Source of the DNA: Nocardia nova SH22a
GTDB taxonomy: Bacteria; Actinomycetota; Actinomycetes; Mycobacteriales; Mycobacteriaceae
Direction of reading: 5' to 3'
DNA: 64,000 bases
NCBI RefSeq assembly: GCF_000523235.1
Contig: NZ_CP006850.1
Span: forward strand, 5,394,001 to 5,458,000
The notes below the pieces were generated by a model, which saw only the letters and a program-made list of their open reading frames with translations, did not search any database and was not told the DNA's origin. The position numbers and the translations under genes are program-made. This document shows, one piece after another, positions 28,045 to 51,695 of the stretch (its first letter is position 1; every line of letters begins with the position of its first letter).

Positions 28045-28344
28045 TCAGCGCAGGAGCTCCATCAGCACGTCCTGTGCGTCGTTGTAGTGGAGGGTGTCCA
28101 CCCACAGTCGCCAGCCGACGGTCGCGCTTTCGGGTTCGAGGCGGGTGGTGCGGACGGCGGCGGCGTAGCCCGCGATTCCGGCCTCGGCGAGTGCGAAAAG
28201 TGCCGGGTAGATCTGCTTTTCGGTCAGATCGGCGAGGATCGCCCAGGCATGTGCGGTATGGCCGTTGCCGATGCCGTTGGGCGGCAGCCAGTACATCGTG
28301 TCGCGGCCGTCGGACCACGGGTCGGGGATGTTCGGCGCGCTCAT
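28045..28344 (-). CDS. Hypothetical 99-aa protein of the ABC-F operon
   Basis: This small soluble protein has no family that I recognise. ATG 28344 has a strong AGGAGG site and overlaps the stop of the upstream zinc-repeat gene by four bases (ATGA), so it is the third gene of the operon controlled by the leader at 31429-31497. The sequence begins with a DPWSDGRDTMYWLP segment, is mixed alpha/beta in character and has no cysteine. Its job should be linked to the two upstream genes. Confidence 0.75.
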   Translation of the reverse strand: MSAPNIPDPWSDGRDTMYWLPPNGIGNGHTAHAWAILADLTEKQIYPALFALAEAGIAGYAAAVRTTRLEPESATVGWRLWVDTLHYNDAQDVLMELLR

Positions 28345-29720
28345 GTTCCGGCCTCCTGCCATTCTTTCGCGGTCGATCCGAGGAATGCGGCGCCGCGCAG
28401 CAGCGGCACGGCACGCCGCCACGCCTGCTCGACCGGGGTGACCGGCTCGTTGCGCGCGGTCCAGGCCCGCTTGCGCAATGTCTCGTCCAGTTCCCATGCC
28501 AGCAGGCGCAACCGTTGCCGCACCACCGTGTGCGGTAGCCGCTCGCCGAACCGGTGGGCGTGGGCCAGGCACGGCCCGTGCCCGTGTTCCCAATGATCGC
28601 GCACCGTGCGGTCCGCCATCGCCGCCGACAGCAGGGCCCGTTCGCGATTCTCGGCGGTGCCGGCGGCGACGCAGGCCGCGCACGGGGTGCTGTCGCGTTC
28701 GAAGCGCTCGACATGTTCGCGCACCTTGGGCGGGTGCAGGACCTCGGCGAGGCCCGCGCCGCGCCGCATCGAGTGGACCGAGTCCGTGACCCGGTGCGGC
28801 AGCGCGTGGTGGGCGGTCGCGGCGTCGACCCGTTCGTACAGGCGCCGCAGCCGTGCGAGGGTGTGTGCCCGCATGATGCCCGCGAGTTGTCCGGCGGCAG
28901 CGTAGCCGAACAGCGTCGCGATGCCGAGATGCTCCGGACAGAGCCATGTTTCGACGGAATCCAGCTCCGCCGGACGCTGGCCGACCAGCCACGTCACATA
29001 CCGGAGTTCGGCGTGTGCGCGTGCCCGGCACAGCGGGCAGCACGCCCGGTCCAGATCGGCGACGGCGCGGTCGAATCCGGTCCGCGCGGCGGTCAGTTCG
29101 TCGGCGGCCTTGCGGATATCGTTGGTGTGCACCACGATCCGCGCACTGCGGGCGAGATCGGAATTCAGGGGCACCAGCAGGGTGAGCGAATCGGTGCGGG
29201 CGTCGGCCAGTGTGCCGATCATCGACGAAACCAGGTCGGCGGTGGCCGCCGGTGGCGCACCGTGCAGGAGAGCCTGCAGATGCGGCAGGCAGTAGTCCGA
29301 TGCGGCCAGTGCTCCCATGACCTCGTCGTCGGCGAGTTGTTCGGCCAGCCGCCGCAGATGGTGCTGCCGGGCAGCCTCACGGCTCGCACAGGCCGGGCAT
29401 CTCCCGTCGAGAGTGTTCTCCGGATGGGCGAGCACCGCCGCGACGACATCGGCGAACATCTGCGGAAGATGGCCGCGCCCTTCGGAATCGAGGCACAGCC
29501 CGCGCAGATGTTCGGCGCAGAATCCGCCCGCGTGCGCGACCTTCATCCGATAACCGGGGTCGGAGTGCGTCTCGATCACATACCAGTTGTGCCAGTTGAG
29601 ATCCGCGCCGTCGCCGGTGCGGCACAGCGGGCAGCCGGGTTCGCCGAGATCCCGCAGGACCGCGGTGCGTTCGGCGGAGCGGGATTCCGCGCGGCCGGTG
29701 TCGCTGAACAGTCCGATCAT
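28341..29720 (-). CDS. Protein with four CxxC...CxxH putative zinc-binding repeats
   Basis: This 459-aa soluble protein contains four copies of one pattern: CxxC, 33-38 residues, then CxxH. The cysteine pairs are at 30/33, 108/111, 228/231 and 347/350, and the partner CxxH motifs at 68-71, 144-147, 261-264 and 384-387. The repeated C3H sets suggest four bound zinc ions. No catalytic motif was recognised. The gene starts 11 bases after the ABC-F gene with GAGGAG upstream and overlaps the next gene, so it is co-transcribed with an EttA-like factor under a fluoride-riboswitch-type leader. A ribosome- or RNA-associated role is a guess from this context. Confidence 0.8.
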   Translation of the reverse strand: MIGLFSDTGRAESRSAERTAVLRDLGEPGCPLCRTGDGADLNWHNWYVIETHSDPGYRMKVAHAGGFCAEHLRGLCLDSEGRGHLPQMFADVVAAVLAHPENTLDGRCPACASREAARQHHLRRLAEQLADDEVMGALAASDYCLPHLQALLHGAPPAATADLVSSMIGTLADARTDSLTLLVPLNSDLARSARIVVHTNDIRKAADELTAARTGFDRAVADLDRACCPLCRARAHAELRYVTWLVGQRPAELDSVETWLCPEHLGIATLFGYAAAGQLAGIMRAHTLARLRRLYERVDAATAHHALPHRVTDSVHSMRRGAGLAEVLHPPKVREHVERFERDSTPCAACVAAGTAENRERALLSAAMADRTVRDHWEHGHGPCLAHAHRFGERLPHTVVRQRLRLLAWELDETLRKRAWTARNEPVTPVEQAWRRAVPLLRGAAFLGSTAKEWQEAGT

Positions 29721-29731
29721 GATCTCGCTCC

Positions 29732-31405
29732 TCAGTCTCGGGTCAGCCTGCGGTGGGTGAGGCGGTGCGGTCGCGCCGCGTCCGGCCCCAGGCGCGCGAG
29801 CTTGTTCTGTTCATAGGCGGCGAAGTTGCCCTCGAACCAGAACCAGCGGCCGGGATCGGCGGCGGTCCCCTCCCAGGCCAGGATGTGGGTGGCCAGCCGG
29901 TCGAGGAACCAGCGGTCGTGGGCGGTGACGATCACACAGCCCGCGAACTCGTCGATCGCGTTCTCGAGCGAGTCCAGGGTTTCGGTGTCGAGATCGTTGG
30001 CGGGCTCGTCGAGCAGCAGCACATTGCCACCCTGTTTCAGGGTCAGGGCCAGGTTCAGCCGGTTGCGTTCACCACCGGAGAACAGCCGCGACGGTTTCTG
30101 CTGATCGACTCCGCGAAATCCGAAGGCGGCCAGATACGCTCGCGACGGCACCTCCATCGTGCCGACCCCGATGACGGCGTGTCCGCCGGACACCACATCC
30201 CACGCGGTGCGGCCGGGATCGATCCGCACGCGATTCTGATCCACGTACGAGATTTCGACGCTGTCACCGATGCGGATCTTCCCGGCGTCGGGAGTCAGCT
30301 CGCCGATGAGCAGCCGGAACAGGGTGGTCTTACCCGCGCCGTTGGGGCCGAGTACGCCCACGATTCCGTTGCGCGGCAACGAGAACGACAGATCCCGGAT
30401 GACGGTGTGGTCGCCGAACGATTTGTCCACGTGGTCGGCCTCGACGACCAGACCGCCCAGCCGCGGCCCCGGCGGTATCCGGATCTCGTCGAACGTGCGA
30501 ACCCGCGCACCGTCGGCCGCGGCGGCCATCTCCTCGTAACGACGCAGGCGCGCAGCGCCTTTCGCCTGTCGCGCCGCAGGGCCGGAGCGGATCCATTCCA
30601 GTTCCCGGCGCAGTCGCCGCAGTCGTTCGGCGTCCTTGCGGCCCTCGACCCGCAGCCGGGTCGCCTTGGTATCGAGATAGATACCGTAGTTGCCGCGGTA
30701 GGGATGGGCGTGACCACGGTCGAGTTCGAGAATCCACTCGGCGAGGTTGTCGAGGAAGTAGCGGTCGTGGGTGACGGCGACGACCGTGCCCGGATATCCG
30801 GACAGGTGCTGTTCGAGCCACTGCACGCTCTCGGCGTCGAGATGATTGGTCGGCTCGTCCAGCAGCAGCAGATCCGGTCGCTGTAACAGCAAGCGGCACA
30901 ATGCGACTCGACGTCGCTCACCGCCGGACAGGGTGGTGACCCCGGCATCGGGCGGCGGGCAGCGCAGGGCGTCCATCGCCTGATCGAGGCGCGAATCCAG
31001 ATCCCACGCGCCGCGGCGGTCCAGCTGTTCCTGCAGTGCTCCCAGTTCCGCCAGCAGTTCCTCGTCCGCGTCGTCGGCGAGCCGTTCGGCGATCTCGGTG
31101 TAGCGCGCCAGCAGCGCCTGGGTGCCGGCCACCGCGGCCTCCACGTTGCCGCGCACGGTCGCGGTCTCGTCCAATTCGGGCTCCTGCGCCAGGATGCCGA
31201 CCGTGATGCCGGGGGCGAGCACCGCCTCCCCGCCCGCGGTCAATTCGAGCCCGGCCATCACGCGCAGCACGGTCGACTTACCCGCGCCGTTCGGGCCGAC
31301 GACGCCGATCTTCGCGCCGGGCAGCACCGTCAGGGAGACGTCATCGAGGATGACCTTGTCCCCTTTGGTCACCCGGGCACGGTCCAGCATGAAGATCCAC
31401 CGCAC
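29732..31405 (-). CDS. EttA-like ABC-F ATPase
   Basis: This 557-aa protein has two ABC cassettes with Walker A motifs GPNGAGKST and GPNGAGKTT, signatures LSGGERRR and FSGGERNR, and the arm/linker region of EttA, a ribosome-bound translation factor. There are no membrane segments, as expected for ABC-F. The sequence differs from the usual actinobacterial EttA N terminus, so it is probably a second copy. GTG 31405 was chosen because GGAGG lies eight bases upstream and the upstream ATG (31426) falls inside the leader RNA. It is the first gene after the riboswitch-like element at 31429-31497. Confidence 0.88.
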   Translation of the reverse strand: MRWIFMLDRARVTKGDKVILDDVSLTVLPGAKIGVVGPNGAGKSTVLRVMAGLELTAGGEAVLAPGITVGILAQEPELDETATVRGNVEAAVAGTQALLARYTEIAERLADDADEELLAELGALQEQLDRRGAWDLDSRLDQAMDALRCPPPDAGVTTLSGGERRRVALCRLLLQRPDLLLLDEPTNHLDAESVQWLEQHLSGYPGTVVAVTHDRYFLDNLAEWILELDRGHAHPYRGNYGIYLDTKATRLRVEGRKDAERLRRLRRELEWIRSGPAARQAKGAARLRRYEEMAAAADGARVRTFDEIRIPPGPRLGGLVVEADHVDKSFGDHTVIRDLSFSLPRNGIVGVLGPNGAGKTTLFRLLIGELTPDAGKIRIGDSVEISYVDQNRVRIDPGRTAWDVVSGGHAVIGVGTMEVPSRAYLAAFGFRGVDQQKPSRLFSGGERNRLNLALTLKQGGNVLLLDEPANDLDTETLDSLENAIDEFAGCVIVTAHDRWFLDRLATHILAWEGTAADPGRWFWFEGNFAAYEQNKLARLGPDAARPHRLTHRRLTRD

Positions 31406-31428
31406 GACGACCACCTCCGGACGCATCC

Positions 31429-31694: not shown

Positions 31695-32498
31695 ATGGAC
31701 AACGCGATGCTCACCCTGCGTAACCCGTTCACCGGCGATCCGGTGCCACTGCGAACCACGCGCGGCGCCATGCTGACGCTCGGCTGCGCGTTGCCGGCCG
31801 ATATCACCACCTTCACCCTCGTCCGGGCGTTGCTGATCGCCGATGTGCTGCGCCGCATTCTCGAAGATCTGCACGATGTGCAGGTGATATCGGCCGTACT
31901 CAGCGACGATCCGGACATCCTGGAGCGGGTCGGCACGCACCTGTCGACCGTCCGCCCACCGGCGGGCGTGTTCGACTCGCCCGCGGCGGCACGCGCCGCG
32001 CTGGGCCGCGATCCCGACGTGCTGGTCACGCCGCGGCATTCGGCCGAGGACCACCCGCTCAACCGGATACCCCGGGCCACCACGGTGGTGCGGGTGGCGG
32101 CCGTGCACTGGGTGGCGCCCGGACGGCACTGCGAACCCGATCCGGCCACCGTGCGATACGCGTTCACCCAGGCACCCTACGAATACGAACTCGTGCTCAC
32201 CGGCGCCGTCCTCGATCACAGTGCGGCACAACTGGATCGCTGGCGCCGGCGCATGGGCGAGTGGAGCCGCTCGGCCAGCCGCCCGATACCGGCGTGGTGG
32301 CGCGCCCGCGCGATCGCCGACCTCGACGACGATCTCGATGTGGCGGCGGCCGCGGAGCGGATGAACCGCCTCGAACTCTCCACCACGGTGGAACCCGGCG
32401 CGAAATTCGAGGCGTTCGCGTTCCTGGACCGCATCCTGGCCATCGATCTGGCACGCGACCTGGGCCGTATGTCACGACAACCCGCGCCCGTGCGATGA
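31695..32498 (+). CDS. Degenerate cysteinyl-tRNA-synthetase/MshC-like protein
   Basis: This 267-aa protein resembles the N-terminal nucleotide-binding fold of CysRS or MshC: it opens with LTLRNPFTGDPVPLR, continues with a region where CysRS has its CGPTVY...HIGHAR segment, and then ADVLRRILEDL. The HIGH and KMSKS motifs needed for adenylate formation are gone; only one cysteine remains at the aligned position. The C-terminal helices end with FLDRILAIDL, as in CysRS. It is about half the length of CysRS. Aminoacylation is therefore unlikely. The start ATG 31695 has CGGGAG upstream. It is the first gene after riboswitch 2 and overlaps the ABC ATPase gene by four bases. Confidence 0.72.
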   Translation: MDNAMLTLRNPFTGDPVPLRTTRGAMLTLGCALPADITTFTLVRALLIADVLRRILEDLHDVQVISAVLSDDPDILERVGTHLSTVRPPAGVFDSPAAARAALGRDPDVLVTPRHSAEDHPLNRIPRATTVVRVAAVHWVAPGRHCEPDPATVRYAFTQAPYEYELVLTGAVLDHSAAQLDRWRRRMGEWSRSASRPIPAWWRARAIADLDDDLDVAAAAERMNRLELSTTVEPGAKFEAFAFLDRILAIDLARDLGRMSRQPAPVR

Positions 32499-33334
32499 TC
32501 CGCCAATCGCGGCACGTCGGGAGCGCTGCCGTGATCGGCGCCGAAACACACTGCGCCTGTGTCGATTTCCCGATCTTCGACGCCCGGTCCCGGTCGCTGA
32601 AGAAGCACGTGCTGGCCGGTGGCCGGATCGGGACCGGCACGGCGGTGCCGGTGGTGCACGCGCTGCGCGAGATCACGCTGTCGATCCGGCGAGGTGAGCG
32701 GGTGGGCCTGGTCGGACGCAATGGCGCGGGCAAGTCGACACTGTTGCGCCTGCTGGCCGGGATCTACGAGCCGACCAGCGGGTTCGCCCGCACCGTCGGC
32801 CGCGTCGCCCCGGTATTCGACCTCGGATACGGCATGGACCCGGAGATCTCCGGATACGACAACATCATCCTGCGCGGGCTGTTCCTCGGGATGACCCGCC
32901 GTCAGATGCGTTCCCGGGTCGAGGACATCGCCGATTTCACCGAACTCGGCGAATATCTGTCGATGCCGCTGCGCACCTTCTCGACCGGAATGCGGGTGCG
33001 GCTGGCGCTGGGCGTGGTGACCTGCCTCGAACCGGAGATCCTGCTGCTCGACGAGGGAATCAGCGCGATCGACCGGGGCTTTCTGCTGCGCGCGCGGCAA
33101 CGCCTGCACGATCTCGTGGACCGGTCGGGCGTGCTGGTGCTGGCCTCGCACACCGACGACTATCTGCTCGAGTTCTGCGACCGCGCGCTGTGGTTGCAGG
33201 ACGGCCACATCGTCGCCGACGGCCCGGCCGGGCAGATTCTCGCCGCCTATCACGGCCGCCCGGTGACGCCCGCGAACGGCCCGGAGACAGGTTGCGACAC
33301 GGTCGAGGCGATCGGCGAGGGGCCCGGCCACTGA
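32495..33334 (+). CDS. ABC transporter ATPase of the polysaccharide-export type
   Basis: This 279-aa ATPase resembles the TagH/Wzt/RfbE group that powers export of polysaccharides. It has Walker A GRNGAGKST, the FSTGM signature typical of this group, Walker B ILLLDEGISAID and an ASH switch histidine. ATG 32495 overlaps the stop of the upstream gene (ATGA). No permease gene is in the window, so its membrane partner must be elsewhere or it does not work as a transporter. It belongs to the operon of riboswitch 2. Confidence 0.85.
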   Translation: MIRQSRHVGSAAVIGAETHCACVDFPIFDARSRSLKKHVLAGGRIGTGTAVPVVHALREITLSIRRGERVGLVGRNGAGKSTLLRLLAGIYEPTSGFARTVGRVAPVFDLGYGMDPEISGYDNIILRGLFLGMTRRQMRSRVEDIADFTELGEYLSMPLRTFSTGMRVRLALGVVTCLEPEILLLDEGISAIDRGFLLRARQRLHDLVDRSGVLVLASHTDDYLLEFCDRALWLQDGHIVADGPAGQILAAYHGRPVTPANGPETGCDTVEAIGEGPGH

Positions 33335-33478: not shown

Positions 33479-35017
33479 ATGAACCAGAGCTTCAGCATCC
33501 TGTTTCCCGGTGCGCCGCCACCGCTGTGCCGCCCGGAACCACCGTATTTCTCCGATCTCAACCTCGGACAGGTGCGCCAGGTCCTGTTCGCCGGGCGCGA
33601 CGCCTACGACCTCGCGCCGGTGTTCCACACGCCCCTGACCGATGTCGCCTCGGTGCGTTACCGGCACGAGGTCTTCACCGATCTCGACGGCGATCCCGAA
33701 TTACGTGCGCTCGTAAAAGAATTCGCCGCCTCGATGCGAACCGTCCGCCGCGCCCTCGACCTCGCCCGGCAGGTGACCGACCACCACGAGGCGGACGCCT
33801 GGCAGTTGCACGCCGCCGAGGTCTACGTCGCCGCGACCCGATCACTGCACCGCTACCTGTCACGGTCCGAGGTGGCCTCGACGGCCCTGCGGCAATTCGG
33901 CGCCCGCCTGAACGACCTGGTGGCACACTCCGCCTTCACCGAACTCGCCGAACATGCCGCCGACGTCGCCGAACAGCTCTACCGGATCACCTACTGTCTC
34001 GACGTCCACGGCGACCGGATCCGGGTCGCCCGCTACACCGGCGACGACGACTACGAGGCCCGCGTCCGCGCCGTCTTCGACAAATTCCAGGAGACCGACA
34101 CCCCGCGCGAGGTCTACGACTTCCATTCCCACGCCGACCTCAACGGTGTCGAGAGCAAAGTCCTCACCCTCGTCGCGAAGCTGTATCCCGATCGGTTCGC
34201 CGCCCTCGCCCGATTCCGCGACCACCATCCCCGGATCCCCGACGAACTGATCGTCGACTTCGACCGGGAGATCCAGTTCTATTGCGCCGCACTGGATCTC
34301 CGTGACCGCCTGGCGCCGTTCGGATTGTCGTTCTGCCTGCCGGAACTGCTCACCGATTCCAAGGACCTGTCCGCGAGCGGAGTGTTCGATCTGGCACTGG
34401 CCGACAAACTGACGCTGGACAAGAAGCCCCGGCCGGTGGTCACCAACGACGTCGATCTGTCCGGCCGCCAGCGCGTCATCGTGGTCACCGGGCCCAACCA
34501 GGGCGGCAAGACCACCTTCGCGCGCGCGATCGGCCAGCTCTACCACCTCGCCGCACTCGGCATGCCGGTACCGGCCGCCACCGCTCGAATCCGGCTGTGC
34601 GACAGGCTGTTCACCCATTTCGAGCGCGAAGAGGATATGGAAACCCTCAGCGGCAAACTCGAAGACGAGCTGATCCGCGTGCACGACATCCTCGACCACG
34701 CCACCGGCGAATCGGTGGTGGTGATGAACGAGACCTTCACCTCCACCACACTCGCCGACGCCGCCCGCCTGGGCGCGTCGGTCCTGCGCCGGATGCTCGG
34801 ACTGGACCTGCGCTGCGTATACGTGACCTTCGTCGACGAACTCTCGGCGCTGGGTCCGGCGACGGTCAGCATGGTCGCCGCCGTCGATCCCGCCGATCCC
34901 GCGCACCGCACCTTCGAGGTGGTGCGGCGCCCCGCCGACGGCCTGGCCTACGCGGCGGCCCTCGCCGAGGCGCACGGGCTGACCTATCAGCGGATCAAGG
35001 AACGGATGGCGTCATGA
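33479..35017 (+). CDS. MutS-related ATPase, first copy
   Basis: This 512-aa protein has the core (lever/clamp) and ATPase domains of MutS but no mismatch-binding domain I. Walker A is GPNQGGKTT in place of the MutS GPNMGGKST, and the Walker B region reads VVVMNETFTSTT, with Asn before the Glu. The start ATG has a TAGGAGG site. It is the first gene after riboswitch 3 and overlaps the second MutS-like gene by four bases, so the two may form a heterodimer. MutS-like genes are among those known to follow fluoride riboswitches; their task is not known. Confidence 0.85.
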   Translation: MNQSFSILFPGAPPPLCRPEPPYFSDLNLGQVRQVLFAGRDAYDLAPVFHTPLTDVASVRYRHEVFTDLDGDPELRALVKEFAASMRTVRRALDLARQVTDHHEADAWQLHAAEVYVAATRSLHRYLSRSEVASTALRQFGARLNDLVAHSAFTELAEHAADVAEQLYRITYCLDVHGDRIRVARYTGDDDYEARVRAVFDKFQETDTPREVYDFHSHADLNGVESKVLTLVAKLYPDRFAALARFRDHHPRIPDELIVDFDREIQFYCAALDLRDRLAPFGLSFCLPELLTDSKDLSASGVFDLALADKLTLDKKPRPVVTNDVDLSGRQRVIVVTGPNQGGKTTFARAIGQLYHLAALGMPVPAATARIRLCDRLFTHFEREEDMETLSGKLEDELIRVHDILDHATGESVVVMNETFTSTTLADAARLGASVLRRMLGLDLRCVYVTFVDELSALGPATVSMVAAVDPADPAHRTFEVVRRPADGLAYAAALAEAHGLTYQRIKERMAS

Positions 35018-36564
35018 AAGTGCGGCTCATGTACCCCGATCGCGCCTTCGATCCGGAGGCCGAGCTGCCGCCGCACGTGCCGGACCTGCGCCAGGATCTG
35101 GAACTGGACCGGCTGCTGTCGGTGATGGCCAGCGACGACGACTACCTCTACACCGTCTGCGAACGCGGGCTGTTCAACGGCGTCACCGAGCCGGACGTGA
35201 TTTGCTATCGCCAAAGGGCACTGCGGGATTGCCTGGCCCATCCCGGCACCGTCATCGAGATCTACAACCTCGTTTTCGAGGCGCTGGCCCAGGAGCGCAA
35301 GCACTGGCTCTTCCGCTCGGCCATGTATCAGCCCACCCCGGACAAACTCCTCACCCGGGCGCTGTCGCTGCTGACCGTCTTCCTCGACGCGCTGGTGCGC
35401 GTCCGGGATCTGACCGCCGCCCACCGCGCCGAATTCGATTCCGCGGCCTTCACCCAGTTGTTCGCGACCCTGTCGCGCGAACTGTCCGACGACTACGTCG
35501 CCGAGGTGCGCGACCACCTCGCGCAGTGCCGGTTCCCGCGCGGCGCACATTTCAGCGCACGCCTCGAAAAAGGCTGTAGCAGTACCGATTACATATTGCG
35601 CACCCCCCATCGGGTGGGCCTGCTCGGTCAGCTGGGCCAGCTGGGCTCCGCCGATTCCAAGTCCTACACCTTCCGCATTCCCGACCGCGACATCGCCGCG
35701 ATGGATGCCGCCGCCGAACTCTACGCACGCGGCATCATGGCGGTGTCGCAGACGCTGACCAGGGCCTCCGATCACGTCACCGCGTTCCTGCGGCAACTGC
35801 GCGCCGAACTCGGCTTCTACATCGGCTGCTACCACCTGCGCCGCGAACTGGACGACCGGCGGCTTCCGGTCTGCTTCCCCGAGCCGGTCGACACCGGAAC
35901 CGAGACGCTGACCTGCCGCGGACTCTACGATCCGTGCCTGGGCCTGCACGTCGGCCATCCGGTGATCGGCAACGACATAGACGCCGACGGCATCTCCGTC
36001 ATCGTGGTCACCGGCGCGAACCAGGGCGGCAAATCGACTTTTCTGCGCAGCGTCGGCGCGGCGCAACTGATGATGCAGGCGGGCATGTTCGTCCCCGCCG
36101 AGTCCTTCCGCGCCAATACCCGCACGGGGGTGTTCACCCACTTCAAGCGGGAGGAGGATCAGACGATGACGCACGGCAAATTCGACGAGGAGCTGGTGCG
36201 GATGAGCCATCTGATCGACCTGATGGGCGGCGACGCCCTGTTGCTGTGCAACGAATCGTTCGCCGCCACCAACGAACGCGAGGGTTCGGCGATCGCCCGC
36301 GACGTGATCGACGCGCTCGACAGCGCCGGGGTCGAGATCGTCTACGTCACGCACATGTTCGATCTCGCGTCGAGTCTGGCCCGGCGCCACGACGCCACCC
36401 AGTTGTTCCTGCGCGCCGAACGCCGCCGCGACGGCGCCCGAACCCTGCGCGTCACCCCCGGCGCACCACTGCCGACCAGCCACGGCGACGACGTCTACCG
36501 CCATATCTTCGGGACCGAACCCGAACCCGCACCACCGAATCCGATGCCGAATTCGCCACGGTGA
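35014..36564 (+). CDS. MutS-related ATPase, second copy
   Basis: This 516-aa paralogue of the preceding gene also lacks the mismatch-recognition domain. Walker A is TGANQGGKST and the Walker B region LLLCNESFAATN, followed by EREGSAIARDV. The NE pair in place of the usual DE is shared with the first copy, which supports a common special function. ATG 35014 overlaps the upstream stop as ATGA. It is followed by enolase after 14 bases. Classical mismatch repair is unlikely from the domain content. Confidence 0.85.
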   Translation: MKVRLMYPDRAFDPEAELPPHVPDLRQDLELDRLLSVMASDDDYLYTVCERGLFNGVTEPDVICYRQRALRDCLAHPGTVIEIYNLVFEALAQERKHWLFRSAMYQPTPDKLLTRALSLLTVFLDALVRVRDLTAAHRAEFDSAAFTQLFATLSRELSDDYVAEVRDHLAQCRFPRGAHFSARLEKGCSSTDYILRTPHRVGLLGQLGQLGSADSKSYTFRIPDRDIAAMDAAAELYARGIMAVSQTLTRASDHVTAFLRQLRAELGFYIGCYHLRRELDDRRLPVCFPEPVDTGTETLTCRGLYDPCLGLHVGHPVIGNDIDADGISVIVVTGANQGGKSTFLRSVGAAQLMMQAGMFVPAESFRANTRTGVFTHFKREEDQTMTHGKFDEELVRMSHLIDLMGGDALLLCNESFAATNEREGSAIARDVIDALDSAGVEIVYVTHMFDLASSLARRHDATQLFLRAERRRDGARTLRVTPGAPLPTSHGDDVYRHIFGTEPEPAPPNPMPNSPR

Positions 36565-37864: not shown

Positions 37865-38446
37865 GTGAACGAGTTTTCGGCCCAGCCCACCGTGGACTGC
37901 GTCTATCTGGCCCGGCACGGCCGCACCGCCTACAACGCCGGTGGGCTGCTGCGCGGCCTCAGCGATCCGCCGCTGGACGAGGTGGGCGCGGAAGAGGCGG
38001 ACAAGCTGGCCGCCGCCCTCGCCGAACGCCATCTCACCGCCGTGCTGTCGAGTCCGCTGCAGCGGGCGGTGTCCACCGCACGCGCCATCGCCGACGCGGC
38101 AGGTCTCGAGGTGCGGGTCGACGCACGGCTCGACGACCGCGACTACGGTCCGTGGACGGGGCATCCACGCGCCGACGTGGAGGAACGTTTCGGCAGTGTC
38201 GACAATGCTCCGGGGGTCGAACCGGCCGATGCGCTCGCCGCTCGTGCCCTGTCGGCGTTCCTGGCCATCGCCTCCGAGTTCCGCGGCGGACCGATCGCAC
38301 TCGTCTCACACGACGCCTTCAACCGGGCCGTGCTGCACCAGCTGGATCCGACCCTGACCGATATTCCGCAGCCCACGGCCTGCTGGAATCGGCTCGACCT
38401 CGACCACGGCCGCTGGACGGTCACCACCGTCGGTCACAAACCCTGA
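37865..38446 (+). CDS. Histidine phosphatase / phosphoglycerate-mutase-like protein
   Basis: This 193-aa protein belongs to the histidine phosphatase superfamily. The catalytic motif is ARHGRTAYN at residues 16-24, with the second histidine in LVSHDAFNR. The short length points to a phosphatase rather than a cofactor-dependent mutase. GTG 37865 has AAAGGA upstream, 14 bases after the enolase stop, so it ends the operon of riboswitch 3. Pairing with enolase suggests work on glycolytic three-carbon phosphates, but the substrate is not known. Confidence 0.85.
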
Positions 38447-44385: not shown

Positions 44386-45167
44386 CGGCGCCCCTCCTTC
44401 CCGCGCAGATCGCCCAGCCGCCCGGCGGCCAGCTCGATCGCGTACAACAGCGCGAAGGGCGTCGGCGGAGAACCCGGCACCCACACATCGACCGGGACCA
44501 GTTCGCCGATACCGCCCGTCGCGGCGTAGGACGGGCAGATCAGCCCGCCGGAGATCGCGTCGGTACCGGCCGCGATGACGACCAGCGGCCGGGGCGTGGC
44601 CTCCAGGGTCCGTGCCAGCGGGGCGGCCATTCCGTGGCTACCGCAGCCGGTGACGAGCAGGATGTCGGCGTGGCGCGGGCTGGCCGTGAAGAAGATGCCC
44701 AGCCGGTGCACGTCGTAGACGGGATTGAGCAGCGCCTGGATCTCCCATTCGACCGCGCCGTCGGAGCCCGCGTCGACGTGGCGAATGTGCACCGATCGCC
44801 GGAATCCCCTGGTGCGCTCGGCAAGCCGATTCCGCACCGCGTCGAGTTCGGTGCCGGGAAGTTCGGGAACCACCAGCAGGTCCCGATCCGGCCGGGCCAC
44901 CGCGGATCCGGGCGTCCACTCGAAGACCTCGGGGTGCGCGGTGACGCAGAATCCGCATCCGATGCAGCGCCCCTGATCCACCTGCGTCGTATCCGCCACC
45001 GGGGAGATCGCGCCGGTCGGGCACAGCGTCCGGAATTCCTTGCGCCACACTGTCTCCGGTCGCACGCGGGCCACCGACCGCACACCGCGCTCGGCGTAGT
45101 CGTCGGGCCGTTTCGGGTAGCCGGTGGTGACCACACCGTCGCGCAGGCCCCGCAGTACCCACGGCAT
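44382..45167 (-). CDS. Ferredoxin-NuoB-like fusion subunit lacking the proximal cluster motif
   Basis: This 261-aa protein fuses a ferredoxin-like domain to a HyfI/HycG (NuoB-like) domain. The ferredoxin part keeps CPTGAI and CIGCGFC, enough for one [4Fe-4S] cluster; the cysteines of the other cluster are lost (HP replaces CP). In the NuoB-like part, VHIRHVDAGS is followed by DGAVEWEIQ where hydrogenase small subunits have CNGCELEIQ, so the cysteines of the proximal cluster are absent. ASPRHADILLVTG is well kept. It begins directly after the large-subunit stop and overlaps the HyfB-like gene. Confidence 0.85.
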   Translation of the reverse strand: MPWVLRGLRDGVVTTGYPKRPDDYAERGVRSVARVRPETVWRKEFRTLCPTGAISPVADTTQVDQGRCIGCGFCVTAHPEVFEWTPGSAVARPDRDLLVVPELPGTELDAVRNRLAERTRGFRRSVHIRHVDAGSDGAVEWEIQALLNPVYDVHRLGIFFTASPRHADILLVTGCGSHGMAAPLARTLEATPRPLVVIAAGTDAISGGLICPSYAATGGIGELVPVDVWVPGSPPTPFALLYAIELAAGRLGDLRGKEGRR

Positions 45168-46661
45168 CTACATCACCACCCCGGCGATCGAGAGTCCGAA
45201 ACTCGCTTCGATGAACGGGAAGTCGGTGAGGATGTCACCGCGGAACGTGCGCGCGAAGACGGCCAGATTGTGGAACGACGCCGAACGAGGCGCACAGCGC
45301 GCCAGGCGACCGTCCGCGCCGACGCGGATCAGATACAGCACCTCGCCCTGCGGCGCTTCGGCCCAGCCGACGCTCTGTCCCGCCACGACGTCCACGGGCG
45401 ACCGGAGTTCGCCGCCGATGCCGTTGTCGAGCAACTCGACTGTCTGCGAGAGCAATTCGAACGATTCGCCGACCTCGTCCCAGCGCACCCGCAGTCGCGC
45501 CATCGCATCGCCGTCGGTCTGTGGTGTGCCCGGCGACCGCATCAGTTTCGGGTAGGCGTCGTAGGGGCGCTGCCAGCGCGCGTCGTCGGTTTCACCGCTG
45601 GCCCGGCCGACCGGTCCGAGCAGTCCGTAGGCGCGGGCGAAATCGTCGGCCAGCGGTCCGGTGCCGCGCAAGCGGTCCAGGAACGACGGTGTCTGCATCA
45701 GCGCGCGGGCGTCACCGGTCACGGCGCGCCGGACTCGCCGCAGCAGCGCGTGGATCTCCGCACCGGACAGTGCGGGCAGTGCGCGCACTCCGCCGGGCAC
45801 GACGACCCCGCGGCCGAATCTGTTGCCGCACAATGCCGAAACCAGGCGCAGCACCGATTCCTTGTGCGTGCCGAAGCGGGCGGTGGCCACGGCCAGCCCC
45901 GCGGCGTCGGACAACCGCATCGCCACGTCGAGATGGTTGGCGACGCGTTCGAGTTCGGCGTGCAGCACCCGCACCAGCTGTGCGGCCGGTGGCGGTTGCG
46001 CGCCCGACAGGCGTTCCACCGCATGCGAATACGCGACGGCGTGGGCCACCGTCGCGATCCCTTCGACCCGCTCGGCCAGCAGCACCGCCTCGATCGGGTC
46101 CATCGATTCGAACCGCACCTCGACGCCGCGGTGCTTGAAATGCGGGCGGACATTGACATGCGGAATGTCCTCGCCGGGTGTCTCCACCACGTACTCCACC
46201 GATTCGAAGACTCCGGAGCGGACCGGGCCGTGCGGAATGCTGAACAACCCCGGCCCCATGACATGACGCGGCAGCGCTCGCTCGTCCGGATCGACCCGCA
46301 CGGGATGTGCCGGGCCACCCGGATTCGGCAATGCCGCCGCAACCTCGCCGTGCCCGCGATGCGGGAGGACGAGCGGATCCAGTCGTGGATGCCCCTCGGC
46401 GAGGGCGCCGAACAGGTCGTGGATCGCGCGCTCGTACCAGAAGGCCGCGGGGACATCGCGAGTCAGCGACGGATATCGGTCCGCGCCCGGTGGCAGACGC
46501 ACGTCGATCGAGGTGACCTCCTGCTCCCCCGCCAGCAGCGCGTGCAGGGTCAGGCCGCCGGCGATCTCGCCGTCGCCGACCAGACCGGCGAAACGCGCAC
46601 CCGCGTCCCAGGATTCGAGCACCTCGGTCCACAGGTCGGCGGCGATCACCGGGCGGCTCAC
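45168..46661 (-). CDS. HyfG/HycE-like large subunit without nickel-iron cysteines
   Basis: This 497-aa protein combines a NuoC-like N-terminal part (PAAFWYERAIHDLFG) and a NuoD/hydrogenase-large-subunit part (HFKHRGVEVRFE). Where group 4 hydrogenases have the first metal motif RxCGxC, this protein has RVEGIATVAH. At the C terminus, where DPCxxC is expected, it ends SFGLSIAGVVM. All four metal-binding cysteines are therefore missing and hydrogenase activity is excluded. GTG 46661 overlaps the upstream stop. The protein is long and well formed, so this is a kept variant and not a decayed gene. Confidence 0.86.
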   Translation of the reverse strand: MSRPVIAADLWTEVLESWDAGARFAGLVGDGEIAGGLTLHALLAGEQEVTSIDVRLPPGADRYPSLTRDVPAAFWYERAIHDLFGALAEGHPRLDPLVLPHRGHGEVAAALPNPGGPAHPVRVDPDERALPRHVMGPGLFSIPHGPVRSGVFESVEYVVETPGEDIPHVNVRPHFKHRGVEVRFESMDPIEAVLLAERVEGIATVAHAVAYSHAVERLSGAQPPPAAQLVRVLHAELERVANHLDVAMRLSDAAGLAVATARFGTHKESVLRLVSALCGNRFGRGVVVPGGVRALPALSGAEIHALLRRVRRAVTGDARALMQTPSFLDRLRGTGPLADDFARAYGLLGPVGRASGETDDARWQRPYDAYPKLMRSPGTPQTDGDAMARLRVRWDEVGESFELLSQTVELLDNGIGGELRSPVDVVAGQSVGWAEAPQGEVLYLIRVGADGRLARCAPRSASFHNLAVFARTFRGDILTDFPFIEASFGLSIAGVVM

Positions 46662-48115
46662 GGCCCACCGCCGATCTCGGCGACCCCGCGGCCGATCAGG
46701 TCGGCGAACGCGGCCGGTGGATGCACACCCAGCACGACCAGTACCAGCACCCCGGCCAGCATCGGCACGACCATCCAGACGCTCGGTTCGCCGCGGGCCG
46801 GGATGTCGTCACCCGCGACGAACAGCATGCGCGTCGTGGCCAGCGACAGACCGAGAAATGCCACCGTGACCAGCACCACCAGCACCGCGGCGGCGGTCGT
46901 GCGGGCCCCGGAGATACCGCCGGTGACGATCTGGAACTCACTGCGGAACAGGCCGAACGGCGGCATCGCCGACAATGCCAGGACCGCGGTCAGCAGCAGC
47001 GGCCCCGTCCACGGCAGCGCCGCTCCCGCGGCGCGGATCCCGGCGATCTCCTTGGTCCCGTACTTCTGCACCAGCACGCCCGCGCCGAAGAACGCGTTGC
47101 CCTTCGCCGCGGCGTGCACGACCACATGCAGCAGCACCCCGGCCACCGCGATCGGCGCGCCGAAACCGATTCCGATCGCCATGATTCCCATGTGCTCGAC
47201 GCTGGAATAGGCCAGCATGCGTTTGAGATCCTGCTGATCGAGCAGATACAGCGCCGCCAGCGCCAGCGACGCGATCCCGAACACGAGCAGAACCGCACGC
47301 GGAAACTCCGGGCCCAGCGCGGCCACCGCGATCTGGTAATAGCGCAGCACCGCATAGAAACTCACCGCCAGCAGCGATCCCGACAGCAGCGCCGAGATCG
47401 GCGTGGGCGCCTGCGAGTGCGCGTCGGGAAGCCAGGTGTGCACCGGGAACAATCCGACCTTCGTACCGTAGCCGAGCACGCCGAGCACGTAGGCGAGTTG
47501 AACGGCGGTGTGCGGTAACGCCTTTCCGGCGGACAGCAGTGGCGCGAAGGCCAGATCGTAGGAGGCTCCCAGCGCTTCGGCTCCGGCGTAGTACATGAAA
47601 ATCGTGGCCAGCAAACCGATTCCGAGCCCCGCCGAGGCCAGCAGGACATATTTCCACGCGGCCTCGGCGGCGGAGCGGGTGCCGTCCAGCGCCACCAGCA
47701 GCGCCGAGACCACGGTGGTGATCTCGACCGCGATCCACAGCAGCGCCAGCCCGTTCATCGCCGGCGCGCACACCATCGACCACGCGAAGATGTTGAACCC
47801 CAGGTAGTACCGGCGCGCATAGCGGCCGAAATGCTCACCGCCGTGCCCCGAACGCACATAGCCGACCGAGTACACCGCCGCGGCCGCGTACAGGAAGCCG
47901 GTGGCGAGCAGGAAGATCACCGACACGGCATCGACCCGCAGGAAGCCGATCTGCACCGGCCCGGCCGAGACCGTCGTGATCAGCGATACCGCGAGCCCCG
48001 CGACACCGAGTCCGGCCAGCACGGTGGACACCTCCGCGGCCCGTACCCGTCCCGTAGCCGAGATCAGCGCGGCCAGCAGCGGGACCGTCACCAGCGCGAT
48101 CAGCACACCCGTCAT
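46658..48115 (-). CDS. HyfF-like (NuoN/NuoM-type) membrane subunit
   Basis: This 485-aa polytopic protein is a second antiporter-type subunit of the hydrogenase-4-like complex. Family segments include WIAVEITTVVSALLVAL, GYGTKVGLFPVHTWLPDAHSQAP and MLAYSSVEHMG. The lysine in GTKVGL and the glutamate in AVEITT match proton-channel positions of the family. It lies four bases before the HyfE-like gene's stop in the same operon and overlaps the large-subunit gene by four bases. Confidence 0.88.
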   Translation of the reverse strand: MTGVLIALVTVPLLAALISATGRVRAAEVSTVLAGLGVAGLAVSLITTVSAGPVQIGFLRVDAVSVIFLLATGFLYAAAAVYSVGYVRSGHGGEHFGRYARRYYLGFNIFAWSMVCAPAMNGLALLWIAVEITTVVSALLVALDGTRSAAEAAWKYVLLASAGLGIGLLATIFMYYAGAEALGASYDLAFAPLLSAGKALPHTAVQLAYVLGVLGYGTKVGLFPVHTWLPDAHSQAPTPISALLSGSLLAVSFYAVLRYYQIAVAALGPEFPRAVLLVFGIASLALAALYLLDQQDLKRMLAYSSVEHMGIMAIGIGFGAPIAVAGVLLHVVVHAAAKGNAFFGAGVLVQKYGTKEIAGIRAAGAALPWTGPLLLTAVLALSAMPPFGLFRSEFQIVTGGISGARTTAAAVLVVLVTVAFLGLSLATTRMLFVAGDDIPARGEPSVWMVVPMLAGVLVLVVLGVHPPAAFADLIGRGVAEIGGGP

Positions 48116-48119
48116 GTGG

Positions 48120-48827
48120 TCAGCCCCGCAATCCGGTCAGATCGCGGGTGGACAGCGATTCCGCGCGCCGGTGATGCAACTGCATCAGCACGCCGAACAC
48201 CACCACCGCGACCAGCAGATCGAACAGGAACGCCACCTCCAGGATCAGCGGAAGTCCCGCCGCGACAACGAGACTGGCCAGCGAGACGCCGTTCTCCAGG
48301 GAGAAGAATCCGATCGCCTGCGACACCACGTCGCGGCGCACGATCATCAGGACGAACGCGACCAGCACCACCGCCATCGCCAGCCCCAGGGCGGTGGTGG
48401 GCAGTGCCGGGCTCTCGATGTGGAACCGCCCGGTGGCGAAGAATCCGAAGGCGGCGACCACCACCGCCAGCAGCACTTCACTGGCGACTCCGAGCGCGCC
48501 GCTCCCGGCGATCTCGGTACCGGCGGTGCGCAGCATCCGCAACACCAGCCACGGCACCACGATCACCTTCAACGCCAGCGACAATGCCGCCAGCGCATAC
48601 AGTTCCGGAACATGCCGGTCCACGGCGACCACGACCGCGAGCACCGACACCAGCAGCGACTGCACCGCGTACACCCGGACCTGGCCGCGCAGCAGTGTCG
48701 TGCGCAACATGGCGAATTCGGTCAGCAGCACCAGCACCGCGAGCCCGTTCGCGATTCCGGCGTAGACCGACGGCGGCGCCACGGCGGGCGAATCACCGCC
48801 CACCGCAATCAGATTCACCACGGACAT
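48120..48827 (-). CDS. HyfE-like membrane subunit
   Basis: This 235-aa membrane protein corresponds to HyfE, a NuoK-related subunit of hydrogenase-4 complexes, with about seven hydrophobic helices and the FFSLENGVSLASL segment typical of the group. It begins immediately after the stop codon of the HyfC-like gene and ends four bases before the HyfF-like start, showing tight operon packing. Confidence 0.85.
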   Translation of the reverse strand: MSVVNLIAVGGDSPAVAPPSVYAGIANGLAVLVLLTEFAMLRTTLLRGQVRVYAVQSLLVSVLAVVVAVDRHVPELYALAALSLALKVIVVPWLVLRMLRTAGTEIAGSGALGVASEVLLAVVVAAFGFFATGRFHIESPALPTTALGLAMAVVLVAFVLMIVRRDVVSQAIGFFSLENGVSLASLVVAAGLPLILEVAFLFDLLVAVVVFGVLMQLHHRRAESLSTRDLTGLRG

Positions 48828-49787
48828 CTACCCACCTCCGAAGTAGAGGGTGAATACGGCCAGCACCACCAGCAGGAAGGCGGCCGCCACGAATTCGGTG
48901 ATCTTGAACAGCCGCAGCTTCGCGAACGAGTCGTCGATCACCGCGATGACCACGCCCAGCAGCACGCATTTCAGCGGCAGCGCCACGATCGCCACCCCGA
49001 CCCGCCCGGCGTCGGCGCTCACCGCCATCCCCCACGGCGCGATGAACACATTGAGCAGAATCGTGAACAGCACCATCTGCTTCATCGCCGAACCCCAGCG
49101 CAGCATCGCCAGCAGCGGCCCGGACCACTCGAATCCGCGCGCTTCCTCGATCATGCCGAATTCGTTTGTCCCGGTGTGGGTTTCCACCGGAATACGCCCG
49201 GTCTCGTAGAGGATCACCATGAAGAACGCGACCGCGGCCAGCAGATGCGCCGGGCGCACGATCTGCTCGGCCGACGACCGCACCGTCTCGCCCAGCGCGT
49301 ACGGCAGATCGGTGCCGGTCACCAGCGCCACGGTGAACACCACGAACAGCACCACCGGTTCGGTGATGGCGGCGAAGGTCTTCGATCGGCTCGCGCCCAT
49401 CTGCGCGTAGGGAGAACCGGTCTCGGCGGCGGCCACCGCGATCACGAAGCTCGCCAGCGCCAGCACGAAACCGCCGCCGAGGATGTCACCGATATAGCCC
49501 AGCGGCAACGGATAGGTCGTCAGTACCGGAATCAGCAGTGGGACCAGCAGATAGCACGCCATCGCCGCGACCGGCGCGAGCAGAAATACCCACGAGGCGC
49601 CGCGCGGGGCCAGCGACTCCTTGCCGAAGAACTTGGCGAGGTCGTAGTAGGGCTGCAGCACGCGGGTTCCGCGCCGACCCTGCAATCGCGATTCCACCCG
49701 GGCGATGACGCCCGACACCCAGGGAGCGGTGACCAGGATCGTCACCGGTTGCAACGCCTGGACCATCGGAATCGGCAGCGAGATCAT
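48828..49787 (-). CDS. HyfC/NuoH-like membrane subunit
   Basis: This 319-aa membrane protein is the NuoH-type anchor of the complex. It has QPYYDLAKFFGKE, AETGSPYAQMGASRSKTFA, ILYETGRIPVETHTGTNEFGMIEE and AKLRLFK, all typical of HyfC/HycD. ATG 49787 was chosen with GAGG upstream; more upstream codons in frame lie in the leader RNA. It is the first gene of the six-gene operon under riboswitch 7. In hydrogenase complexes this subunit links the soluble arm to the proton pumps. Confidence 0.88.
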   Translation of the reverse strand: MISLPIPMVQALQPVTILVTAPWVSGVIARVESRLQGRRGTRVLQPYYDLAKFFGKESLAPRGASWVFLLAPVAAMACYLLVPLLIPVLTTYPLPLGYIGDILGGGFVLALASFVIAVAAAETGSPYAQMGASRSKTFAAITEPVVLFVVFTVALVTGTDLPYALGETVRSSAEQIVRPAHLLAAVAFFMVILYETGRIPVETHTGTNEFGMIEEARGFEWSGPLLAMLRWGSAMKQMVLFTILLNVFIAPWGMAVSADAGRVGVAIVALPLKCVLLGVVIAVIDDSFAKLRLFKITEFVAAAFLLVVLAVFTLYFGGG

Positions 49788-49863
49788 GGGCGGACCTCGC
49801 CTGCGCGGCGACACCGGGATCCGGCGGCGATCTCGCCCATTCGTCGCTCCTCTACCGTCCGGA

Positions 49864-49879: not shown

Positions 49880-49890
49880 ATTGTCGGGAT

Positions 49891-50144: not shown

Positions 50145-50193
50145 CGTCGACGCGCGTACTCGTATGCGCGCACAACACCAGGAGGGCAGCCGA

Positions 50194-50532
50194 GTGAAGA
50201 CCTCGGACAGGTCGATGCGACTCTCGATATTCGTCGGTGAGAACGATATGTGGCACCACCGGCCGGTCTACAGCGAAATCGTGCACCGAGCCCACCGCGC
50301 GGGCCTGGCCGGAGCGACCGTCGTGCGCGGCATCGAGGGCTACGGCGCCACCTCGCGCATCCACCAGACGCATCTGTTCAAACTCAGCCAGGATCTGCCG
50401 ATGCTCATCGTCATCACCGATGCCGAGGACCGGATCAGGACCTTCCTGCCGCAACTGGAAGAACTCGATCTCACGGGTCTGGCCGTCCTCGACGAGGTCG
50501 AAGCCATCCATTACCAGACTCGGCGAGGGTGA
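50194..50532 (+). CDS. DUF190 protein, first copy
   Basis: This 112-aa protein belongs to DUF190, a family with a PII-like fold often encoded beside crcB/Fluc fluoride channels. It has [20 protein letters not shown] and [18 protein letters not shown], the family hallmarks. GTG 50194 has CCAGGAGGG upstream; the earlier ATG at 50086 lies inside the riboswitch and is rejected. It is the first of four genes in the unit. A regulatory or ion-linked sensor role is likely by family context, not shown. Confidence 0.87.
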
Positions 50533-50539
50533 CACGCGG

Positions 50540-50881
50540 ATGAAACTCACCGGATACGCGCTGCGGTTGCAGATCCTGGTCGGCGAGGACGACCTGTGGC
50601 ACCACAAGCCCGTGTACCACGAAATCGTGCGCCGGGCACGGGAATCCGGCCTCGCGGGAGCGACCGTGCTGCGGGGCTGCGAGGGGTTCGGCGGCCACGC
50701 CGTCATCCACACCACCCGGTTGCTGGACATGACCGAAGACCTCCCGGTGGTGGTCGTCCTCGTCGACGCCGAGGAGCGCATCCGCGAATTCCTGCGCCAG
50801 CTCGACGACATCATCACCGACGGCACCGTACTGCTCGACGAGGTCGAGGTCATCCACTATCAGGGCAGGGCTCCCTCGTGA
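50540..50881 (+). CDS. DUF190 protein, second copy
   Basis: This 113-aa paralogue follows the first DUF190 gene after seven bases. It has [38 protein letters not shown] and a C-terminal DEVEVIHYQ segment. The two copies may form mixed oligomers. Its stop overlaps the GTG start of the DUF211 gene. Confidence in the family is high; the function is not known. Confidence 0.88.
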
Positions 50882-51162
50882 ACGTGCGACGGATAACCAT
50901 GGATGTCGACAAGGCCGTGCAGCGGCCCGATCTGGTCGAACTCGCCGAAGCCATCGACACCGTGCCCGGTGTCCGGGCGTTCAACATCACCGTCGGGAAC
51001 ATCGACATCGAGACGGTCGGCATGGACATCACCGTCGAAGGTGAATTCCTCGATGTCACCGCGATCGTGGCCGCCATCGAGAACGCGGGCGCGGCCATGC
51101 ACAGCATCGACGAAATCGTCGTCGGCGACCACATCGTCGATCTCGTGCAGCGCAACAGATGA
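50878..51162 (+). CDS. DUF211 protein
   Basis: This 94-aa protein matches DUF211, a small ferredoxin-like-fold family best known in archaea. It has the [20 protein letters not shown] start, [17 protein letters not shown] and the [14 protein letters not shown] ending. GTG 50878 overlaps the upstream stop, and its own stop overlaps the ATG of the next gene, so translation of the four genes is coupled. Presence in an actinobacterial fluoride operon is unusual. No catalytic residues are evident. Confidence 0.83.
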
Positions 51163-51695
51163 CACGACCACACGACAGCGCGTGGCTGCTGCCCGTCGGC
51201 CTCGGCACCTCCGACGGCATCCTCAACGCCCTCGTCCTGGCGTCGGCCTCCCTCGTCCACGGCGACACGACCATGACCTTCGCCCTCGCCGCGCGGGTCT
51301 CGACGGCCGCGCTGGTCACCGCGGTATTCACCTATTTCGTCGCCGAATACGCCAACCTCCGCTCGCAATTGCGTCACGCCGAGCGCCAGCTCAACATCAC
51401 CGAAGCCGGTCGCCTCGCCACCGGCCACCTCGGTCACCGGATACGCCTCGACGCCGCACGCGCCACCCTCCTCGCCGGAAGCTGCAGCTTCCTCGGCGCA
51501 CTCGGGCCGCTGCTGCTCGGCGCCGCGGTTCCTTCCGCCCCCTGGCTCTCCCTCGCCGTCGCGATCTGCGCGCTCGGCGGCCTCGGCGCGGTCCTGGCCC
51601 GCGCCGTCCACGGCACAACCCTGAAATGGGCGACCGTGATGATGGGCTGCGGAGCCGCACTCGCGGCGATCGGCATCCAACTCGACATCGCGTGA
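51159..51695 (+). CDS. VIT1/CCC1-like integral membrane protein
   Basis: This 178-aa protein has about five hydrophobic helices and begins with GLGTSDGILNALVLAS, like the GANDGI start of VIT1/CCC1 iron/manganese transporters. It is shorter than those and lacks their cytosolic metal-binding loop. It is the last gene of the DUF190-DUF190-DUF211 operon under riboswitch 8, so it could be the membrane partner of these soluble proteins, possibly for ion export. This function is inferred from context. Confidence 0.72.
   Translation: MTRPHDSAWLLPVGLGTSDGILNALVLASASLVHGDTTMTFALAARVSTAALVTAVFTYFVAEYANLRSQLRHAERQLNITEAGRLATGHLGHRIRLDAARATLLAGSCSFLGALGPLLLGAAVPSAPWLSLAVAICALGGLGAVLARAVHGTTLKWATVMMGCGAALAAIGIQLDIA

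Follow-up and report, generated by a model that had tools for sequence, protein, structure and literature searches.

The window analysed here, a 64 kb stretch of the one 8.35 Mb chromosome of Nocardia nova SH22a, very probably carries a fluoride-stress island in which each of eight gene units is switched on by a fluoride riboswitch in its leader, with two aptamer subclasses and, in most leaders, a translational ON switch; this reading comes from the sequence. The island spans 28.0-51.7 kb and holds about 22 genes on both strands, additional copies of housekeeping enzymes among them. Its eight elements lie within 19,000 bases, and each heads one unit, 23-105 nucleotides (nt) upstream of the first gene's start codon. 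In the mechanism that we propose, fluoride and magnesium would lock the pseudoknot and hold strand 42-50 in the aptamer; without fluoride, this strand would pair with the ribosome-binding site and block translation. Four aptamers are canonical (A6-U38); in the other four, an actinobacterial subclass, the pair is G6-C38, mostly accompanied by C41 and A39. Among the products, enolase, glutamine synthetase and phosphatases would stand in for or back up metalloenzymes sensitive to fluoride, an Ehr-type complex, perhaps along with DUF190 and TIGR00267 proteins, would move ions, and further tasks would fall to a MutS-like pair, an EttA-like ABC-F protein and a DUF6062 protein. A ninth switch would control crcB, the gene of the fluoride exporter. 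Two or more units seem to have arisen by capture: in one a NUDIX gene received a crcB-type leader, and in another a copied glnA frame came to lie behind a switch. Riboswitches of this kind are already known; what is new, as far as our searches of the literature show, is the eightfold island, the capture of leaders and a G6-C38 subclass that Rfam does not pick up.

Eight riboswitch elements in the window

The elements, named in the text by their first position, are the following (scores are those of the Rfam model RF01734 unless marked otherwise).

31429-31494, minus strand: element 1, G6-C38, leader of the EttA-like unit; 23.2 bits
31568-31641, plus strand: element 2, A6-U38 with one extra loop base, leader of the CysRS-like (cysteinyl-tRNA synthetase-like) protein and ABC ATPase; 27.6 bits
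33349-33397, plus strand: element 3, A6-U38, leader of the MutS-like pair, enolase and phosphatase; 39.2 bits, match from 33340
38485-38550, plus strand: element 4, G6-C38, leader of the NUDIX gene; 21.3 bits
39224-39276, plus strand: element 5, G6-C38, leader of the metallophosphoesterase; unlisted by the Rfam model
42201-42257, minus strand: element 6, G6-C38, leader of glnA; 16.1 bits (49.9 bits with model R2, below)
49893-49976, minus strand: element 7, A6-U38, leader of the six-gene Ehr-type complex; 43.1 bits, match from 49887
50085-50141, plus strand: element 8, A6-U38, leader of the DUF190-DUF190-DUF211-TIGR00267 unit; 31.8 bits

We searched both strands of the window with a descriptor, composed after inspecting the sites, that requires a P1 helix of the form GGNG/CNCC, six pseudoknot pairs (8-13/42-47), A40 and U48, allows one extra loop base and leaves positions 6, 7, 37, 38, 39 and 41 free. 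It finds exactly these eight elements; 30 second-order Markov shuffles yield 0.6 matches on average. All eight have the P1 helix, the six-pair pseudoknot and the bases of the reverse Hoogsteen pair, A40 and U48, both of which the descriptor demands; C37, a free position, is likewise present in 8/8. A covariance model of 48 elements that include the window's own (R1) finds all eight. A second model (R2), made from 40 elements of other genomes only, ranks all eight at the top, with seven at E <= 2.8e-6 and 31568 at E 0.0013, which is noise level (the best chance match reaches 0.0014), the E-values of such models being rough. All eight elements are real. The preliminary description, which had placed eight fluoride-riboswitch-type leaders here, each at the head of a separate unit, is thus borne out; the single topology that it gave them holds for P1, pseudoknot, A40 and U48, and divides into two sequence classes at positions 6 and 38.

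The Rfam search that it had proposed as a check succeeds only in part. With permissive filters, seven of the eight elements are listed (E 5e-9 to 3.4), but at the gathering score of 34 bits only two pass, namely two of the four A6-U38 elements (43.1 and 39.2 bits, the other two having 31.8 and 27.6) and none of the four G6-C38 elements (23.2, 21.3 and 16.1 bits, 39224 being unlisted). That so few pass is largely because four elements are of the G6-C38 variant. An R1 match at window position 6832 (E 0.0026) is without the 6/38 pair and was taken as chance, and the non-fluoride Rfam matches in the searches of the window and the crcB locus were all far below their cut-offs. We draw no evidence from the pair counts of the 48-sequence alignment, in which 95.1% of cells are paired, since its sequences were chosen by a descriptor demanding most of those pairs.

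Two aptamer classes

Positions 6 and 38 are A and U in 31568, 33349, 49893 and 50085, and G and C in 31429, 38485, 39224 and 42201. The corresponding bases of the T. petrophila structure are joined as a reversed Watson-Crick pair, according to the excerpts cited (PMC11586693, PMC10687018). R1 gives 81 matches in 40 sources: the window itself plus 39 loci that RF01734 or R1 had supplied, without selection on 6/38, those supplied by RF01734 being biased toward A-U. Among them, 62 keep G2, G3, G5, A40 and U48, and of these 50 have A-U, nine G-C (four of them the window's own) and one each A-C, G-U and C-C; the remaining 19 comprise 13 A-U, 1 G-C and 5 others. On these counts the pair 6/38 is kept by covariation.

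A pattern for the G-C form, scanned over 84,980 species, matched at least 120 stretches. The 80 loci taken from among the matches listed all bear actinobacterial names, and two of them are without a descriptor element. Of 114 matches in these pattern-selected loci, 110 were readable and 105 keep the core (92 G-C, 11 A-U, 2 other); by construction of the pattern, one or more elements per locus must have G6 and C38, and these 6/38 counts are not used as evidence. A39 and C41 accompany 81 of the 92 G-C elements, and those G-C elements that, like 31429, have kept G39 and U41 represent intermediates. At its cut-off, RF01734 reports a fluoride riboswitch for none of 20 G-C elements in 18 loci (0/20). 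The G6-C38 elements are a variant subclass that is not filed among the Rfam members. We found no description of a G6-C38 fluoride riboswitch in the literature searched, and such elements may be present in the data of Baker 2012, Ren 2012 and Walker 2012, the last of which (on S. cattleya) is cited in a passage of PMC11139923 for extensive riboswitch regulation. The natural swap from A6-U38 to G6-C38, with its linked changes at 39 and 41, offers a ready-made test of how an RNA holds fluoride. In one Speluncibacter locus of 8 kb, a G6-C38 element shares the stretch with a guanidine-III riboswitch (L106:7606-7668).

The G-C class at crcB and its probable ligand

The G6-C38 variant is common in Actinomycetota and often stands directly upstream of crcB. 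Such elements directly precede crcB-like genes in many Streptomyces, Micromonospora and other loci (partly judged by eye). Each of the 19 best loci of the genus holds crcB (19/19), and in 17 of them an element matches the descriptor near the expected place, in every case with G-C (17/17). The genome studied here has its own example, a ninth element at chromosome positions 6054500-6054570 (L013:1267-1337), upstream of its crcB pair and about 600 kb from the window. It belongs to the G-C class, has a U-G pair in its P1 and scores 43.1 bits with R2 (E 2e-12). Rfam does not list it, even at E 10. An earlier reading, that the genome had no element outside the window and a crcB without a switch, was rejected since the crcB locus itself shows this ninth element. 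A 3' signature at chromosome position 3936841 has no descriptor match and is not an element.

The ninth element was missed by both the RF01734 and the R1 genome searches, which also missed 50085 (R1) and 38485 and 39224 (RF01734), and because both missed it, genome counts made with either model are lower bounds. With that reading, R1 matches 99 of 396 genomes in a sample of the phylum (E <= 1e-4), and RF01734 matches 32 of 151 in a sample of the family (E <= 0.01), 19 of them above cut-off. Because a large actinobacterial subclass, with crcB leaders of Streptomyces and Nocardia-type genomes among its members, escapes the standard model, the fluoride regulons of the phylum are probably under-annotated.

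We sorted 167 elements by the gene downstream, which left 54 unclassified and 4 without a gene. crcB, a class that rests on seeds chosen by a motif, follows 36 G-C, 13 A-U and 1 other element. For the remaining families the G-C/A-U counts are 4/1 for EttA, 1/3 for DUF6062, 1/2 for histidine phosphatase, 1/1 for metallophosphoesterase, 1/1 for the CysRS-like protein and 23/4 for DUF190, the last probably in part an artefact of gene picking in crcB-DUF190 loci. Both classes precede the same gene families, and therefore the G-C class, like the A-U class, most likely senses fluoride. It is possible, if somewhat doubtful, that the two classes differ in their fluoride set-point and give a graded programme, in which crcB, the EttA-like factor, NUDIX, the phosphoesterase and the spare glutamine synthetase would form the G6-C38 set and the CysRS-like, enolase/MutS-like, Ehr-complex and DUF190/DUF211 units the A6-U38 set, new units being recruited by a portable crcB-type leader placed before copied housekeeping genes.

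Proposed control of translation

We analysed 159 leaders with 150 nt downstream of each and tested strand 42-50 against the next 120 nt. The strand pairs with this region better than with shuffles of it (mean z -1.29; 53% of leaders below -1 and 5% above +1). In 137 of the 159 leaders a Shine-Dalgarno sequence (SD) with a start codon was found, the SDs being picked by regular expression, and strand 42-50 pairs with its own SD at a mean of -13.2 kcal/mol, compared with -8.9 kcal/mol for SDs of other genes of the same loci and -10.6 for SDs permuted among leaders. The difference between own and permuted SDs suggests that strand and SD change together.

Partition functions for the window's leaders give the probability that the SD is held by strand 42-50 as 0.80 for EttA, 0.79 for NUDIX, 0.74 for the complex, 0.67 for DUF190, 0.48 for the phosphoesterase, 0.12 for the first MutS-like gene (MutSa), 0.01 for the CysRS-like gene and 0.00 for glnA. 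Modelled binding raises SD accessibility from 0.20 to 0.78 for EttA, from 0.25 to 0.77 for the complex, from 0.17 to 0.61 for DUF190 and from 0.04 to 0.22 for MutSa. A translational ON switch is, by complementarity and modelling, the best supported mode for most leaders; that fluoride is what throws it would follow from analogy with the riboswitch family. In the leaders of NUDIX and the Ehr-type complex, a short open reading frame (ORF) opens at the sequestered SD and overruns the start of the first gene, which suggests translational coupling, and the leader ORFs at 38586-38648 and 49784-49840 are possibly devices for it.

Alternative explanations

Several other explanations need to be weighed. 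With six of the eight elements under the Rfam cut-off, one could take the matches for chance GC-rich hairpins; however, eight were found where 0.6 were expected, all are upstream of genes, the independent R2 ranks all of them first, and genes of these families also follow similar elements in other genomes, which makes chance extremely improbable. Some of the eight could instead be decaying duplicates left by rearrangement rather than working switches, as the extra loop base and weakest R2 score of 31568 and the two leaders without clear SD control might indicate. Decay is nevertheless quite improbable to our minds, since every core pair is kept in 8/8 elements despite five different pseudoknot helices. 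Another explanation concerns the ligand: the G6-C38 (C41/A39) elements might bind some other anion, or magnesium alone, and only four units would then respond to fluoride. In other classes of riboswitch, small changes in the core have shifted which ligand is bound, and here four core positions (6, 38, 39 and 41) change jointly. The hydrogen bonds of U41, moreover, are strengthened by fluoride in the B. cereus RNA, according to an excerpt of PMC8004769 (where the base is numbered U38; the equivalence is ours). Yet the variant stands upstream of crcB in members of the genus and in Streptomyces, the same gene families lie behind both classes, and the window's four G-C elements retain A40, U48 and all six pseudoknot pairs, and we regard a different ligand as rather unlikely. 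Transcription termination, as in the crcB switch of B. cereus, rather than a translation block would fit the predicted terminators that overlap the motif in many cases (in the part of PMC2864571 cited). Within the next 120 nt, however, TTTTT occurs in only 10 of the 159 leaders and TTTT in 20 of the 159, and complementarity links the pseudoknot strand to the SD region; transcription termination is therefore unlikely, while Rho-dependent termination is outside what sequence can show.

The reading of a fluoride island under translational control, which we prefer, also faces points that count against it. The G-C elements and the ninth element are below the Rfam cut-off or unlisted, and the counts of downstream genes have the gaps and the motif-chosen seeds noted above. 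In the complementarity comparison the SDs were selected by regular expression, and its p-values are overstated because the sequences are related and not independent. For GlnA no SD with a start codon was found, as in 22 of the 159 leaders, and a duplex search with the pseudoknot strand of the EttA or GlnA leader gives a best partner other than the SD. The MutSa SD is hardly held by strand 42-50 (P 0.12, as above), and the modelled gain is small for NUDIX (0.21 to 0.36) and the phosphoesterase (0.08 to 0.17). Binding in the model barely frees the SD of 31568 (0.15 to 0.16) and 42201 (0.69 to 0.78), and for these two the simple reading of SD sequestration fails. Finally, the glnA copy is unlikely to be a fluoride-proof isozyme, because its protein shares 94% identity with the closest other GlnA of the genome; the view that all island enzymes are fluoride-proof isozymes misfits it.

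Genes of the island

The units and their genes, together with the two leader ORFs, are as follows.

Unit 1
29732..31405, minus strand: EttA-like ABC-F ATPase, GTG start at 31405; best paralogue in the genome 67%
28341..29720, minus strand: DUF6062 protein (PF19538, E 1e-9)
28045..28344, minus strand: 99-amino-acid (aa) protein with no Pfam match, last of the unit
Unit 2
31695..32498, plus strand: CysRS-like protein, its relation to cysteinyl-tRNA synthetases (about 44%) covering part of the sequence (weak match)
32495..33334, plus strand: Wzt/RfbE-like ABC exporter ATPase
Unit 3
33479..35017, plus strand: MutS-like ATPase a (MutSa), MutS_V domain only
35014..36564, plus strand: MutS-like ATPase b, MutS_V domain only
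36579..37850, plus strand: enolase
37865..38446, plus strand: histidine phosphatase / phosphoglycerate-mutase superfamily protein
Unit 4
38586..38648, plus strand: 20-codon leader ORF (TTG) behind the sequestered SD, overlapping the NUDIX ATG
38632..39168, plus strand: NUDIX hydrolase
Unit 5
39308..40165, plus strand: calcineurin-like metallophosphoesterase (weak Pfam match, E 0.035, below cut-off)
Unit 6
40688..42124, minus strand: glutamine synthetase glnA
Unit 7
49784..49840, minus strand: 18-codon leader ORF, its TGA overlapping the ATG of the first complex gene
42340..49787, minus strand: six-gene Ehr-type complex, with NuoH/HyfC-, HyfE-, HyfF-, NuoCD-, NuoB- and HyfB-like genes
Unit 8
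50194..51695, plus strand: the whole unit
50194-50532, plus strand: DUF190
50540-50881, plus strand: DUF190
50878-51162, plus strand: DUF211
51159-51695, plus strand: TIGR00267-like protein, below that family's cut-off

Known targets of fluoride riboswitches include enolase, mutS-like and formate-hydrogenlyase genes, according to the excerpts of PMC2864571 and PMC11139923, the second of which also gives a Ki of about 80 uM for the inhibition of enolase by fluoride. The preliminary description had recognised all three here; they are indeed known targets and present, but the last two labels are put in question, and its 'C3H-repeat' protein is the DUF6062 protein of unit 1. Both tandem MutS-like proteins have MutS_V as their only MutS domain (E <= 0.1), and no mismatch-recognition domain was found in them, so that 'DNA repair mutS' may be the wrong name. 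The label 'formate hydrogenlyase' is doubtful as well, as the NiFe motif of unit 7 is lost and no formate dehydrogenase is among the island genes assigned to families. The large subunit of group 4 NiFe hydrogenases carries CxxC motifs. In the window its N-terminal motif reads RVEGIATVAHA, with no CxxC, and CxxC is also missing there in all seven relatives, from other fluoride loci, whose alignment covers this motif (an eighth is uncovered there); the C-terminal tails examined also show no CxxC. In the window and in four other loci (L087, L069, L104 and L166) the small subunit has lost cysteines that are kept in L214, L216, L218 and L230. The NuoCD- and NuoB-like subunits of the window (44382-46661) are thus without NiFe and cluster cysteines.

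In the absence of the NiFe motif, the six-gene complex is Ehr-like in the sense of the part of PMC6349859 cited: it combines group-4-hydrogenase-like subunits that have no NiFe-coordinating residues with antiporter-like membrane subunits. Unlike the Ehr complexes described there, it stands behind a fluoride riboswitch, and in its closer relatives the small subunit has lost cysteines as well. It is probably an ion-moving machine, which would be useful when hydrogen fluoride acidifies the cell.

The elements are like the fluoride riboswitch of RF01734 in their P1, P3, six-pair pseudoknot, C37, A40 and U48 and in their place before crcB, enolase, mutS-like and formate-hydrogenlyase-like genes. 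They differ in that half of the window's elements are G6-C38, mostly with A39 and C41, and under the cut-off, and in that control appears translational in most leaders. A parallel for the island is the fluoride-resistance genomic island GI3 of Enterobacter cloacae FRM, where, according to the sections of PMC5533749 cited, a fluoride riboswitch stands over an enolase and a phosphoglycerate-mutase gene and the enolase transcript rises 176-fold. GI3, as portrayed in that source, has a single riboswitch and a single operon, whose six genes include crcB, ppaC and uspA, whereas the window has eight riboswitches and eight units, with crcB elsewhere in the genome. The island lengthens the list of genes that cells may turn on against fluoride by glnA, ABC-F, DUF6062, metallophosphoesterase and DUF211 genes.

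Origin and relatives of the island

Among 150 genomes of the genus, this one included, 64 hold an R1 element at E <= 1e-4. This genome alone has seven by R1 (eight with 50085 and nine with the crcB element) and no other has more than three, all of these counts being lower bounds. Matches to MutSa occur in 47 of the 150 (again counting this genome), elsewhere at 38-50% identity. The NUDIX leader, that is element 4 with its flanks, is 79.5-83% identical over 101-123 nt to the crcB leaders of five congeners, and the likeness extends up to the end of the SD; this resemblance suggests that the island was partly built by leader capture. From its start codon on, the glnA copy matches the DNA of the other glnA at 93% identity (1436 nt), with no likeness upstream. 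Judging from such comparisons, the island regulon seems to grow by capturing riboswitch leaders.

Other actinobacterial loci with such elements repeat a large part of the gene set, and the core of the proposal in the preliminary description, a dedicated island, stands. Multi-element islands elsewhere have seven R1 matches in 20 kb (L213, two of them without the core), six (L120), five (L059) and four (L214), and these four jointly hold the MutS pair, the six-subunit complex and enolase, EttA, DUF6062, DUF211 and TIGR00267 genes. The island enolase is 62-67% identical to enolases in ten other element-bearing loci and 51% over part of its length to that of an eleventh (L218); the two paralogues in its own genome have 55% and 50%. 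A homologue of the metallophosphoesterase, with 63% identity, follows a further fluoride element (L167), and the nearest named relative of the CysRS-like protein is in Nocardia nova (88%).

Related GTP-binding proteins of 550-600 aa, dynamin-like by appearance only, follow fluoride elements in ten loci (L093, L100, L104, L216, L218, L219, L220, L224, L228 and L229) and are absent from the window. Related proteins of 295-390 aa follow such elements in L059, L069 and L100, the one in L059 with weak helix-turn-helix matches, and are possibly regulators under fluoride control. Outside the island, the window contains a minus-strand ORF of 5786 aa (window 4912-22272), perhaps a non-ribosomal peptide synthetase, judged by its size only.

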